Positions 4,235 through 41,155 of a DNA stretch of 64,000 nt are shown in pieces; positions within the stretch are counted from its first letter, which is position 1, and each line of letters opens with the position of its first letter. Both the position numbers and the translations under genes were made by a program. Under the pieces are notes generated by a model. That model did not search any database. It saw only the letters and a program-made list of their open reading frames with translations, and was not told the origin of the DNA. This DNA is from an uncultured Chthonomonas sp. (GTDB taxonomy: Bacteria > Armatimonadota > Chthonomonadetes > Chthonomonadales > Chthonomonadaceae). The stretch lies in assembly GCA_903859705.1 (NCBI GenBank), contig CAIONQ010000105.1, positions 62,001 through 126,000 of the forward strand, written 5' to 3'.

Positions 4235-5107
4235 TTAGTTAACGTTCCACTGCCATCCGGAGTTGCTGTTGTCCGGAATACAAACCTTGTTGTAGGGGTA
4301 GTTAGCTTCAAACCAACCAGGTGCAGCACCTGCGCCATTTGCATGGAACACGTTGTTGCCTGCCGCAACATTCGCATTGCTTACACCCTGCGGTGTCATC
4401 AGTTTGAATTTTACGTGGCCATCAGCGTAGGTGATGTTACCGCCGCCATTATGGCGGGGCAGTCCCCAGGTAAAGCCCTGCCAGCTGAGCCAACCGGTTA
4501 GCAGTGAGGCGTCGTTACCAAAGGTAGTGTCCTCAAGGTTCCAGATCGTCTGCGGGCGGCCCATCCAGTCAACACCGTCGCAGGCGTTGTGAGAAAGGTT
4601 GTTGCATCCCCAGTCCGAGTGGCCATCAAGCACCATCCACGTATCTGCAGGTGCATTCACCGTGGCAAGTTTCACCGGCTGGCGGTTCCGGCCAAGCTGG
4701 TTGTTATACAGGTAGCTAACCGGGTTGCGGTTCCAGTTCCAGCTGGTGGGGTCTGCTGGATCTTCCGTGTCATCACCAGAGCTCGGGCAATAATAAACGC
4801 CCTTGTTCTTAATGTAGGGTGCTGTGGAATTCTGCCAATCCCAGGTTCCGTCTCCAGAACCACTGGGGCCAGCAGGTCGCCATCCGCCAAATGGATAACG
4901 CTCATCATAGTCCTGAACATACATCAGGACACCAAGGCCCAGCTGTTTGCAGTTACTTGCACACGAAGCCGTTCGCGCCTTCTCCCGAGCCTGTGCGAAC
5001 ACAGGGAAGAGGATAGCGGCAAGAATCGCAATAATTGCGATGACGACGAGCAGCTCGATCAGAGTAAATGCACTGGAAGTCTGACCAAATTTCTTGCTAC
5101 TGTGCAT
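4235..5107 (-). CDS. DUF1559-type prepilin (type II secretion/type IV pilin-like, H-X9-DG)
   Basis: This 290-residue protein has a class III prepilin leader. A short basic N-terminus ([13 protein letters not shown]) precedes [19 protein letters not shown], the hydrophobic helix that packs pilin fibres, with Glu at +5. The residue before the cleavage point is Ala rather than the usual Gly. The C-terminal half has the H-X9-DG signature ([12 protein letters not shown]) typical of the large paralogous prepilin families of Planctomycetota and Armatimonadota. It sits 71 nt downstream of a small membrane protein gene on the same strand, an arrangement echoed at 40106-41155. I infer export and assembly by a pseudopilin system; the individual role of family members is unknown. 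Confidence 0.93.
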
Positions 5108-7285: not shown

Positions 7286-9085
7286 TTATTCAGCAATCTT
7301 GAGCACGGAGAGAAACGCTTCCTGAGGTATTTCGATGGAGCCAACCTGCTTCATGCGCTTCTTGCCCTCTTTTTGTTTCTCAAGCAGTTTGCGCTTACGC
7401 GTAATGTCTCCGCCGTAACACTTGGCGATAACGTTCTTGCGGAATGCTTTTACGGATTCGGCAGCGATAATTTTACCGCCTATGGCCGCCTGTATACGAA
7501 CTTCGTATTGCTGGCGTGGCACAACCTCTTTTAGCTTCTCTACAAACAGTTTTGCTCGCGGGTACGCCTTATCTCTGTGAGTGATAAACGAGAGAGCGTC
7601 CACGGGATCGCCGTTCATCATTACATCGATTTTTACGAGCTTTGATTCCTGGTATTTGCCAAGCTCGTAGTCGAAGCTAGCATAGCCCTTGGTTCTGGAC
7701 TTGAGCTGATCGAAGAAGTCCATAAGGATTTCGGAAAGAGGGATCCGGAAGAACAGCATTACGCGTTCTGGCGCCGGGTACTCTACTTTAACGAATTCGC
7801 CGCGACGATCACGAGCCAGCTCCATCACAGTGCCGTAATACATGGATGGCAGCAGAACCGTGGCATCTACATAGGGTTCTTCGGTGTAGGCGATGAGAGT
7901 AGGAGATGGCATATCTGCAGGATTATCCACCTCTTCCATAGTTCCATCCGTTTTATGAACATGGAACACAACAGAAGGTGAGGTAGCTATCAGCGAAAGG
8001 TTAAACTCCCGCTCCAGCCGCTCTTGCACAACATCCATATGCAGCAAACCCAGGAACCCGCATCGAAAACCGAAGCCAAGTGCAGCGGATGTCTCCGGCT
8101 CAAAGGTTATTGCTGCATCGTTTAATTGCAGCTTTGATAGGGCTTCACGCAGGTTAGGATAATCCGCACCATCCATCGGGTAAAGGCCGCAGAAAACCAT
8201 CGGTTTGGCTTTGCGATAGCCTATAAGGGCATCGGTGGCAATATTCCCGGCAGAGGTTATGGTATCGCCAACATTGGCATCACCAATGGTCTTGATGCTG
8301 GCGGCTACGTAGCCAACTTCGCCAGTGGCAATACAATCGCCAATGCGGCGCTGCGGAGCAAACGTACCCACCTCAATTACGTCAAACTCTTTTCCCGTGG
8401 CCATAAACCGAATTTTCTGGCCCGGGCGAATCTCACCATCCACCACTCGCACGTAGCAAACCACGCCCATGTATTGATCAAACTTGCTATCAAATACCAG
8501 GGCCCGAAGTGGCTTTGTTGTGCTGCCACGGGGCGGTGGTATGTAGTGAACAACGGCCTCAAGAATTTCACTGATACCGATGCCTGCTTTTGCACTCGCA
8601 AAAATGGCATGCGAGGCATCCAATGTCAGCACATTTTCAATCTCATCCCGAACTCGTTCGGGCTCTGCTGCGGGCAGGTCAATCTTGTTGATAACCGGTA
8701 TGAGTTCCAGATTGTTCTGGTATGCAAGGTTCACGTTGGCCAGCGTTTGTGCTTCTACACCCTGTGCCGCATCCACAACCAGCAATGCCCCTTCGCAAGC
8801 TGCAAGCGAACGAGATACTTCGTATGTAAAGTCAACGTGCCCTGGAGTATCTATCAGGTTAAACTGGTACTCCTGTCCGTCTAAAGCTGTATAGTTCAGG
8901 CGGACCGCAGTCATCTTGATGGTGATGCCGCGCTCACGTTCCAGATCCATGGTATCTAGAAGTTGCGCCTGCATGTCGCGCCGCGCGATGGTGTTGGTCG
9001 CCTCCAATAGGCGATCCGCAAGTGTGGACTTGCCATGATCAACATGCGCGATGATACAAAAATTTCGTATATGGTCTTGATTCAT
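7286..9085 (-). CDS. lepA: Elongation factor 4 (LepA), ribosomal back-translocase GTPase
   Basis: This is a 599-residue translational GTPase. Near the N-terminus are the P-loop AHVDHGKST (13-21), the G2 region (RERGITIK), DTPGH (G3) and NKIDLP (G4). The C-terminal LepA-specific part is present ([18 protein letters not shown] ... [16 protein letters not shown]) and ends in SVLKIAE, typical of the family. The start at 9085 ([14 protein letters not shown]) matches LepA N-termini; an in-frame ATG twelve codons upstream adds unconserved residues. A -10-like TATACT lies about 30 nt upstream of the start on the minus strand. The gene is divergent from mreC and probably cotranscribed with proB. Confidence 0.97.
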
Positions 9086-9280
9086 AATGAAGCCATGACT
9101 CCCCGGGCAATAGTATAGCATATCACCAGATGCCTCATCGGGCTACAAAACTGTACACTGCGCAGTTACACGATGATTTCGAGGCGGGCTTCATTCTGAG
9201 GTAGTCTATTGACTGATATTTGTGCCGAATAGGGGTGGCATCGCCACCGGCAACGTTCTGTTCCCCCCGGAGTGTTCTGC

Positions 9281-37939: not shown

Positions 37940-38587
37940 TTACCCTGCGCCTGGCACAAACACTTCAAGAAAACCCTCCAGTTCATCCACATCAAATCCA
38001 TACGGCCCTTTCCCACACTGGAAGGCCACCCTCCCATGCTCATCAAGCACATACAGGCGCTCTGGCCAGGCTCCATAAATTCTCTGGGCCAGGTCATCGA
38101 TGGTATCCACAAGTATGGGTACTGTAAGGCGCAATCCAAGGGCGCACGCCAGGGCAGCATCAGCCCGGGCGGATAAGCTCACATGGTTTGCAATTAGCAC
38201 CTCATCGGCAATATTGGATGGGACTTGCCAACCGTCTGTGGAATGTGCTTCGCTAATGTAGATAAGGTAGCTGTCTATGGATAATAGGTACCGCTGGTAT
38301 ATTTCCTCCAGGCGCCCGGCCTGGCGTCGAAATGGTGGTCAGGTATAGCTCCCAAAAATAAGCAGCATCGGCTTTGCAGTTGCACCGCCAATGCGAATGG
38401 ATGTGGTGGCATCCAGTGTCCTTAGCTCAATTAACGGTACAGAACTGCCAACTCGTAAGCTATCTGGCTCGAAATAGCCCACATTTATCAGTATCTCGCC
38501 AGCAAATTCTGGAACTCCTGGCGGCAGTTGGATCCTGGCTGCTTCAGTATTAGAGGTACTCTCCACTGCTTCTATCTTCCGTTTCAC
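37940..38587 (-). CDS. Iodothyronine-deiodinase-like selenoprotein (in-frame UGA = Sec83)
   Basis: If the single UGA at 38339-38341 is read as selenocysteine, one 215-residue protein results. Residues 78-86 read FGSYTUPPF, the deiodinase active site (animal enzymes: FGSCTUPPF). After it come YLIYISEAHSTDGW, matching the conserved YIEEAHxxDGW with its histidine, then ERLYVLDEHGRV and GKGPYGF near the end, all in the same order and spacing as in PF00837 proteins. The fold is a thioredoxin-like redox protein. The GTG at 38587 overlaps the permease TGA (GTGA); a GTG at 38566 has GGAAG upstream and is an alternative. A SECIS-like hairpin follows the UGA. The natural substrate is unknown; bacterial homologues are not shown here to act on iodothyronines. 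A mere nonsense mutation is the alternative. Confidence 0.85.
38302..38332 (-). promoter_or_regulatory. Candidate bacterial SECIS element in the deiodinase-like gene
   Basis: In the minus-strand RNA, 14 nt after the UGA, ccaggc pairs with gcctgg (6 bp, 38308-38324) around the 5-nt loop cgggc, which has G at the second position. A lower helix uuuc/gaaa (38329-38332 with 38302-38305) extends it. Twenty nt separate the UGA from the apical loop. These features fit the published bacterial SECIS model (G among the first two loop bases, loop about 16-37 nt from the UGA). Confidence 0.72.
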
Positions 38588-40053
38588 GCGCGGTTTGCCG
38601 CTTGCGAGGGTTGGTGCAGCTGGCCCTTGACGCGCCTGATAGCAGCATACACTGTTCTGCCGATTAGTAACCATAGTCCCAGTGCAGCCAGATTCATTAA
38701 TGGCACAGCCACTATCATCATGAGGCATATTAGTACGCCAGCAACCGGTACAATTGGCCCGCCCATTATATGGAACTCTGGTTGAACTGTGCTCTGGCGC
38801 CGACGCAGTATCAGAACAAAGACGCATACGGAAATGTATCCTGCCAGCGTACACGTCATAACAAAATCCATCAAAATCCGCAGTGGCAGCAACGCGCTGG
38901 CAATGCAGGCAATAACGCCCACACATTGAATACTTCGGTATGGTGTGTTAAACCTGGTGTGGGTGCGGCCAAACCAGCCTGGCAGCAATCCACCTTGAGA
39001 GATGCCGAAAAGTACGCGAGGCAAACTCATTACGAGAACTAATAGAACAGAACTCATGCCAACCACTGCACCAAAAGCCACAAGAAGTTGTGCCCAATCC
39101 ATGTTAATGGTTCGGAAGGCATCGGAAATTGGCGCGGAAATGCTGATCTTTGAGCTGGGTATCATGCCGGTGAGGGCTATCGCCACCGCAATGTAGATGC
39201 TTGTGATGGCACCAATAGTGGCGATGACGCCCCGAGGAACATCCGTTTGAGGGCGTTTGCATTCGTGCGAGTATGCGGATAGCATCTCAAACCCGCCAAA
39301 TGCAAAGAAAACCATGGCCGCACCCGCCAGAACCCCTGCAGATCCATGTGCGTTGGTATCTCCGGATTTGTCGCCAGGGCCAATTCCACCCCAGCCATAG
39401 GGTGCAAATGGCAACCAGTTTGCCAGCCGGAAGTGGGCGAGGCCAACTGCCACTACCACCAGCAATGTTGTGAGCTTCAATCCCAGCAACAGATTGTTAA
39501 CGCCCATGCTCATTTTTATTCCGCGGTAGGCGATGATGGAAACTATCGTGAGTATTAACACGGCGGGGAGGTTAAGCATTGCTCCGCTCGCTACAATGCC
39601 GCCATGTACCTGATCTAAATCTATGGGAGCGCCCCCGAATCGTGCTGGCCATCCATATCCCAGAGCGCCCAGAAAGCTCTGGAAGTAGCCCGACCATCCT
39701 TGAGCAACGGCTGCACCTGCCAGGAAATAGCAGGTAACGAGGTTCCATCCGGAAAGCCAGCCACCAATTTCACCCAGGGCTGCGCGCCCATAGGCATAAG
39801 TCGATCCAGCAATTGGGATCCGCGAGGCGCACTCGCAGTAACAGAGCGCAACTGCGATGCAGGCTATCGCTGCAATTAAGAACGACACGATTATTGCCGG
39901 GCCAGCCTTGTCATGAGCTGCAATACCAATAGATACAAAAACACCGGCACCTACCACGCCTCCCAGGCCGAGTGACACCAATGAGCCTGGTCCCAGTGTT
40001 CGGGGTGTCGCATCGTCTTGCGCTTCTGGTTGCAATTCGAGATTACCGCTCAT
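38584..40053 (-). CDS. APC-superfamily amino-acid permease
   Basis: This is a 489-residue cytoplasmic-membrane transporter with about 12-14 helices. The N-terminal motif GLGGVVGAGVFVSIG is the substrate-binding unwound helix 1 of APC transporters. Further family stretches are AGSTYAYGRAALGEIGGWLSGW and FFAFGGFEMLSAYSHE. It resembles the cationic amino-acid transporter branch. The start at 40053 (MSGNLELQPE) fits the family better than the longer frame to 40095. It lies 52 nt after the small membrane protein and overlaps the deiodinase-like gene by four bases. Confidence 0.92.
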   Translation of the reverse strand: MSGNLELQPEAQDDATPRTLGPGSLVSLGLGGVVGAGVFVSIGIAAHDKAGPAIIVSFLIAAIACIAVALCYCECASRIPIAGSTYAYGRAALGEIGGWLSGWNLVTCYFLAGAAVAQGWSGYFQSFLGALGYGWPARFGGAPIDLDQVHGGIVASGAMLNLPAVLILTIVSIIAYRGIKMSMGVNNLLLGLKLTTLLVVVAVGLAHFRLANWLPFAPYGWGGIGPGDKSGDTNAHGSAGVLAGAAMVFFAFGGFEMLSAYSHECKRPQTDVPRGVIATIGAITSIYIAVAIALTGMIPSSKISISAPISDAFRTINMDWAQLLVAFGAVVGMSSVLLVLVMSLPRVLFGISQGGLLPGWFGRTHTRFNTPYRSIQCVGVIACIASALLPLRILMDFVMTCTLAGYISVCVFVLILRRRQSTVQPEFHIMGGPIVPVAGVLICLMMIVAVPLMNLAALGLWLLIGRTVYAAIRRVKGQLHQPSQAANRA

Positions 40054-40105
40054 ACATATCCATGTCCGTGAAGTGCGCAGTAGCTCACAACACAATTAAG
40101 AATTA

Positions 40106-40360: not shown

Positions 40361-41155
40361 TTAGTTGGTGTTCAATCCCCAGCTGCCATCCGGGTTCTGG
40401 AATGGAATGCCGCGAAGCTCGGGGCGGTTTTGGTAGGGGCCAGCATCTGTTAGCAGATAGTAATTGATGGCTCTGCCATCTGGCTGATGCCCGCTAATTT
40501 GAACTCCCGATGCATTGGTCCAGGGTTTAGCACGCATTACCTTGGCGTGCCCATCTACAAAACACGAATTCAGCATCAGCTGATGCCGTGCCTGAACCGG
40601 TTCATCCATAAGACTGAAGTATGCGTCCGGCAGCGTTCCAGAGGAGTCGCTCCACAGAGATGTATTTACCGGGAAGTCAATCTGTGCAAGTGTTTTCGTC
40701 GGCCGATTGTTTGGCCCGAAGATGTTGCTGGGGCTGCCCCAATCGATGATCGAGAAGTTAGGCATATAACTTATGTACACCAGTGATGGGCTGCTGGTAC
40801 ACGCAGGCGGCATACCAATAGTCGCCATCATAGGCGGGAAGTTCATTGCCGTTGGGTTTGATGGGCAGGTATAGATCTGGGTGTTCTTTGTATACGGCAA
40901 AATGGCGGTCCAGGCCGAGAACACGCACGGCGAAGGTATGTCGCCAAAGTAGAGGTTCATGGGAAACGTCTCATCGTAATTCTGAACATACATGCTCGTG
41001 GCAAGGCCGGTCTCTTTCATGTTCGAGAGGCAAGAAATCGACCTTGCTTTCTCTCTCGCTTGAGCGAAAACTGGAAATAGAATTGCTGCAAGTATTGCTA
41101 TAAGTGCTATTACTACTAATAGTTCAATTAATGTGAAACCCATGCGTCTGCGCAT
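40361..41155 (-). CDS. DUF1559-type prepilin (H-X9-DG)
   Basis: This is a 264-residue prepilin with the canonical leader MRRRMG, cleaved before [19 protein letters not shown]. The Gly before the cleavage site and Glu at +5 are both present. The H-X9-DG motif is [12 protein letters not shown]. The body ([35 protein letters not shown]) aligns by eye with the other prepilin at 4235-5107 but is clearly divergent. It is probably the first gene of a four-gene transcript with the small membrane protein, permease and deiodinase-like selenoprotein. Confidence 0.93.

Follow-up and report, generated by a model that had tools for sequence, protein, structure and literature searches.

The window, the whole stretch of 64,000 nucleotides analysed here, carries on its minus strand a reading frame from GTG 38587 to TAA 37940 whose sole interruption is a UGA at 38341-38339. 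With this UGA translated as selenocysteine (Sec), the frame yields 215 residues with one internal UGA. The features of the locus are as follows.

37940-38587, minus strand: read-through open reading frame of a deiodinase-like selenoprotein, GTG 38587 to TAA 37940; 215 residues with predicted Sec83.
38584-40095, minus strand: gene of a multi-pass permease, of the APC amino-acid-transporter type by reading of the sequence.
38342-38350, minus strand: Ser80-Tyr81-Thr82, the predicted relay Ser and Thr, with Tyr81 at the proximal-Cys place of Dio1 and Dio3.
38339-38341, minus strand: in-frame UGA, predicted Sec, residue 83 in the 215-residue numbering; aligns with the catalytic Sec of Dio2 and Dio3.
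38308-38324, minus strand: putative bacterial SECIS hairpin CCAGGC-CGGGC-GCCTGG, nucleotides 18-34 from the U of the UGA, from a fold of the 42 nucleotides after the UGA.
38243-38260, minus strand: Tyr110, Glu113 and His115 (YISEAH), predicted proton relay, invariant in alignments A2 and A3.
38183-38185, minus strand: His135, counterpart of Dio2 His182 in the PDB-match alignment.
38144-38146, minus strand: Cys148 (U+65), proposed resolving Cys, from its conservation.
38009-38011, minus strand: Lys193, counterpart of Dio3 Arg275 and Dio2 Lys241 by alignment, with an offset of 113 in the 4tr3 chain numbering.

An earlier note on this DNA had described two same-frame, minus-strand open reading frames split only by the TGA at 38339-38341, and the sequence confirms this arrangement. 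All the motifs it had named, FGSYT-U-PPF, YISEAHSTDGW, ERLYVLDEHGRV and GKGPYGF, were found in the read-through product. Its proposed extent, 37940-38587, holds for the frame but less well for the start. In the closest relative, which belongs to the same genus (G043), an ATG lies exactly 75 codons 5' of the UGA, and GTG 38566 is an in-frame start at the same distance here; GTG 38566, giving 208 residues, is thus likely to be the true start and is favoured over GTG 38587. The latter and the stop codon of the upstream permease gene overlap as GTGA; given this overlap, GTG 38587 is retained as an alternative. A restart at GTG 38200 was considered and rejected.

The order of the permease and deiodinase-like genes is the same in G043. 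Clustering of gene neighbours identified no partner gene that members of this group share above the level of the genus and none hinting at a substrate, and the largest cluster proved to be an antisense artefact. A dienelactone-hydrolase-like gene, assigned by reading, lies near the Sec deiodinase-like gene in eight Chloroflexota loci, including L077 2701-3468. An Rfam search at the locus gave no match, and no relative of the deiodinase-like gene was found in phage records. Two pseudopilin-like proteins in the window (4235-5107 and 40361-41155), which we take to be of the DUF1559 type, have a shared type of start. The attribution of the DNA to an armatimonadote was borne out by a scan of 84,980 species, in which the nearest named organisms were 'uncultured Chthonomonas sp.', the closest of them, and other Armatimonadota.

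The translation, aligned with PF00837 as had been proposed, matched the family with E = 2.2e-28 and 99.6 bits (cut-off 27) over residues 70-208. Because this match spans the UGA, it is not a matter of chance. The only sequence matches in the PDB were mouse Dio3 (4tr3, 5e-23) and Dio2 (9h48, 7.7e-20), iodothyronine deiodinases of the kind that switch thyroid hormone on and off in animals. An AlphaFold2 model built from 56 sequences reached a mean pLDDT of 92.8, and a structure search with this model returned Dio2 (Z 21.7) and Dio3 (Z 21.5), both superposing with an rmsd of 3.0 over 171-172 aligned residues, with the next match at 16.7. ResA-like chains occupy the next rank, peroxiredoxins including AhpE share the fold, and Pfam AhpC-TSA scored 15.7 bits, under its cut-off of 26. 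The gene product is very probably a selenoenzyme with a thioredoxin fold that belongs to the iodothyronine deiodinases (PF00837); we assign it to PF00837 and to no UxxC group. By reading, residues 1-45 contain no hydrophobic stretch and hence no N-terminal membrane anchor. The protein is probably cytosolic, and many relatives carry an apparent signal peptide.

Within Armatimonadota, 19 of 291 genomes encode a PF00837 protein whose catalytic position is an in-frame UGA. A selA match over cut-off is present in all 19, against 138 of the 291 phylum-wide, and in none of the five genomes with a clear stop-free relative, whose proteins carry Cys at the Sec place (FGSISCPVF and FGCITCPVY types). Although shared ancestry keeps these genomes from being independent samples, none of them departs from the division into UGA with selA and Cys without selA. 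With selA in about half of the phylum, Sec use was probably lost or gained several times. A wider scan, covering one genome per species with patterns that did not include the UGA codon, returned 298 encoding stretches, and the best 80 of these were examined. TGA occupies the catalytic place in 80/80 of them. These best 80 of 298 come from nine phyla, namely Chloroflexota (many SAR202), Acidobacteriota, Armatimonadota, Planctomycetota, Pseudomonadota, Myxococcota, Actinomycetota, Verrucomicrobiota and Poribacteria. Within the clade that the best 80 of 298 represent, UGA appears to be the usual codon at this position; since the query was itself of the Sec type, the uniform result points to a large Sec clade and not to a rarity of Cys forms. 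In the tree, the Cys-type PF00837 proteins of the phylum form a separate branch (100%). Dio3 falls beside the Armatimonadota branch, but its own branch is long and was flagged as unsafe, and we therefore draw no conclusion from it about where animal Dios came from. Another armatimonadote carries three tandem Sec-type deiodinase-like genes on one contig (L061; G123 C134:3160-4939) and a weak fourth match elsewhere in its genome. The Cys-type proteins of G262, G263, G276 and G281 continue, by reading, into an alpha/beta-hydrolase-like domain (LDAYLPEEGGPHPVLV...HGG; L021-L024).

In the codons that follow the UGA, pN/pS is 0.29 for the pair G000-G043 (G000 being the window's genome), 0.15 for G039-G041 and 0.07 for G134-G135, and the differences lie mostly at third codon positions (35/25/89 in G000-G043). 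The low pN/pS and the third-position bias indicate that these codons are under purifying selection, and hence that the part 3' of the UGA is translated.

The putative SECIS was evaluated against synonymous-codon shuffles, which keep the amino acids. The folding excess of this single gene is weak (z -1.26). In the family, an excess occurs directly after the UGA only, with a mean z of -0.92 and 48% of genes below -1, while ten other offsets gave means from -0.31 to +0.09. The family hairpin loop starts mostly about 17-18 nucleotides after the UGA and contains G in 83 of 90 genes, often as GGU. Bacterial SECIS elements have been described as having a small apical loop with a guanosine (PMC1088965), in agreement with this pattern. 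The register of the hairpin differs between this subclade and other relatives, and the loop moves by 1-2 bases between lineages; a fixed-register covariation analysis of the SECIS performed no better than slid controls, which were as good or better. A SECIS in this gene is likely, the z of -1.26 being that of this gene alone.

The genome of the window is a 6.24 Mb draft in 179 contigs, 95.7% complete. No selA, selB, selC or selD had been seen in the window, which is correct: these genes sit on other contigs of the same genome. On contig 149, selA (467.5 bits) is followed by selD and then tRNA-Sec, all within 2.7 kb. The tRNA-Sec scores 63.9 bits and was also called by ARAGORN as tRNA-Sec with anticodon TCA. 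selB lies on contig 107 with 387 bits; its profile also matches other translation GTPases (291/291 genomes at E <= 0.001), and only matches over cut-off were used. The selD gene (G000 C149:20127-21071; L070 about 8100-9100) scores 350.9 bits and has an in-frame TGA in the motif CAGUASKIG, which marks it, as judged from its sequence, as a second, independent selenoprotein gene (GUASK). Absence of Sec machinery, which the earlier note had named as grounds for abandoning its reading, is thus not what the genome displays, selA, selB, selD and tRNA-Sec all being present. The UGA at 38341-38339 is very probably decoded as Sec by the genome's own SelA, SelB, SelD and tRNA-Sec with the putative SECIS just downstream, Sec83 being the catalytic residue. 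Because the UGA is conserved, the codons after it are under purifying selection, a SECIS-like hairpin follows and the Sec machinery is encoded, we infer that the UGA is old and that the gene encodes a genuine selenoprotein and has not been broken by a mutation. The claim of a Sec-containing, deiodinase-like redox enzyme is likewise backed by the Sec genes and by the UGA conserved in relatives.

The relay residues of Dio2 are Ser127, Thr129, Tyr157, Glu160, His162 and His182 (PMC11592359), and alignment and offset matched all six, to Ser80, Thr82, Tyr110, Glu113, His115 and His135. The offsets of Tyr110, Glu113 and His115 from Sec equal those of Dio2 Tyr157, Glu160 and His162. His is present at the place of His135 in 50 of 97 bacterial sequences. 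Lys193 occupies the place of Dio3 Arg275 and Dio2 Lys241, for which a contact to the substrate carboxylate has been proposed (PMC11592359). The proximal Cys lies two residues before Sec in Dio1 and Dio3 and is missing from Dio2 (PMC9141512). Of 88 distinct bacterial sequences, 79 have Tyr at the proximal place and just one has Cys, and 86 carry a distal Cys between U+63 and U+68, in nearly every case at U+65. The one sequence with a proximal Cys, that of G121, is among the two that have no distal Cys. Cys148 lies in predicted helix 138-151, eight residues before the place aligned with Dio3 Cys239, and the two are therefore not the same cysteine by alignment. From its conservation, Cys148 is the candidate to resolve oxidised selenium.

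A mechanism is proposed with its steps in falling order of support. Sec83 would owe its protons and reactivity to Ser80, Thr82, Tyr110, Glu113, His115 and His135, and would attack an electrophilic small molecule in the cleft. Cys148 would then resolve the oxidised Sec83 to a selenenyl sulfide, where Dio1 and Dio3 instead use the proximal Cys (Tyr81 here), and a cellular thiol or thioredoxin would reduce the selenenyl sulfide. Hydroperoxides are the favoured substrate class, ahead of dehalogenation and then disulfide chemistry, a prediction that we hold with middling confidence; none of the neighbours and domains decides between these classes.

A reductive dehalogenase is a possible but doubtful alternative. 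Halogenated phenols or diphenyl ethers would lose their halogen to Sec83 by abstraction, as iodine is lost to Dio, and peroxides would not be reduced. The six relay residues, the Lys at the Dio2 Lys241/Dio3 Arg275 place and the position of Dio2 and Dio3 clear of all other structures in the search agree with such a role. However, the Phe258 gate of Dio3 aligns with Pro175 here, peroxiredoxins such as AhpE have the same fold, no halogen-related genes were seen among the neighbours in the gene-neighbour comparison and thyroid hormone is not expected in bacteria (PMC1088965). A thiol-disulfide oxidoreductase of the ResA/TlpA type, acting on disulfides or sulfenic acids, would accord with the ResA-like chains that come next in the structure search and with the many relatives that look secreted. 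We consider it unlikely, as no CxxC or UxxC motif was found, U+3 being Phe here and Phe or Tyr, never Cys, in 88/88 distinct sequences, and as the relay residues are of the deiodinase type.

Two further alternatives concern the codon itself. The reading of the codon is drawn from sequence, and a UGA serving as a sense codon, through a code change or near-cognate read-through, would give a full-length protein without selenium. This is highly improbable: TGA terminates the adjoining permease gene and 11 of the 34 long stop-to-stop frames in the window (antisense frames among them), the UGA falls exactly at the catalytic Sec place, and in the phylum it is found only with selA (19/19), with Cys there in relatives that have no selA. 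A code change was rejected on this use of TGA as a stop and on the tie between UGA and selA genomes. An isolated nonsense mutation, pseudogene or sequencing error in a former Cys-type gene would agree with two open halves that would be annotated as two ORFs and with the existence of Cys forms in PF00837, but its probability is negligible, being refuted by the same UGA in G043 and in the best 80 of 298 relatives across many phyla, by purifying selection 3' of the UGA and by the lack of any close relative with Cys. The earlier note had singled out close strains with Cys as evidence for such a mutation; the relatives keep the UGA, and the genomes with Cys are all more distant and selA-negative.

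With the UGA read as Sec, what standard gene calling would annotate as two ORFs are the halves of one real catalytic protein, in line with the expectation that the gene would be split or missed. Many draft genomes, from nine phyla or more, probably contain genes split in the same way. The complete proton relay of animal deiodinases in a bacterial protein is noteworthy, as is a bacterial clade that almost never has the proximal Cys of Dio1 and Dio3 and yet has a nearly invariant Cys at U+65. A more speculative proposal, to which we give little credence, is that the bacterial UPPF clade comprises Sec-dependent dehalogenases of halogenated aromatics that work without cobalamin or Fe-S, a chemistry ancestral to that of the animal Dios, with distal-Cys resolution perhaps lost in Dio.

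Compared with known systems, the protein shares with Dio2 and Dio3 (9h48, 4tr3) the fold, the TUPPF motif, the Ser-Thr-Tyr-Glu-His-His relay and the Lys at the Dio2 Lys241 place. In contrast to Dio1 and Dio3, it has Tyr81 where the proximal Cys stands, and in contrast to Dio3 its distal Cys is at U+65 and not at the Cys239 place, with Pro175 replacing the Phe258 gate. Unlike vertebrate Dio2 and Dio3, it has no membrane anchor, and its bacterial SECIS would lie inside the coding sequence. Peroxiredoxins (AhpE, PrxQ/BCP) have a similar thioredoxin-type core with a chalcogen nucleophile where helix 1 begins, but their structural match is weaker (Z about 16) and AhpC-TSA remains below cut-off. The Cys-type PF00837 proteins of the phylum (G262, G263, G276, G281 and G273) belong to the same fold family but have Cys (FGSISCPVF type) and come from genomes without selA. 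The family appears in current selenoprotein lists, those of two reviews, with its redox motif printed as UxxC (PMC13188914, PMC9312934); the protein here and its 88 distinct relatives are instead of the UPPF type, with no Cys at U+3. No description of a deiodinase-like selenoprotein in Armatimonadota was found in the literature searched, which covered few subscription journals. In 2005, Zhang, Fomenko and Gladyshev described Sec and Cys deiodinase-like proteins of bacteria from the Sargasso Sea and considered them likely redox proteins with another role (PMC1088965). That selenoprotein likewise belongs to PF00837, with a catalytic Sec, a bacterial SECIS after the UGA and Cys homologues. Thus, the bacterial family has been known since 2005, and the gene described here adds to it a well-supported case from Armatimonadota.
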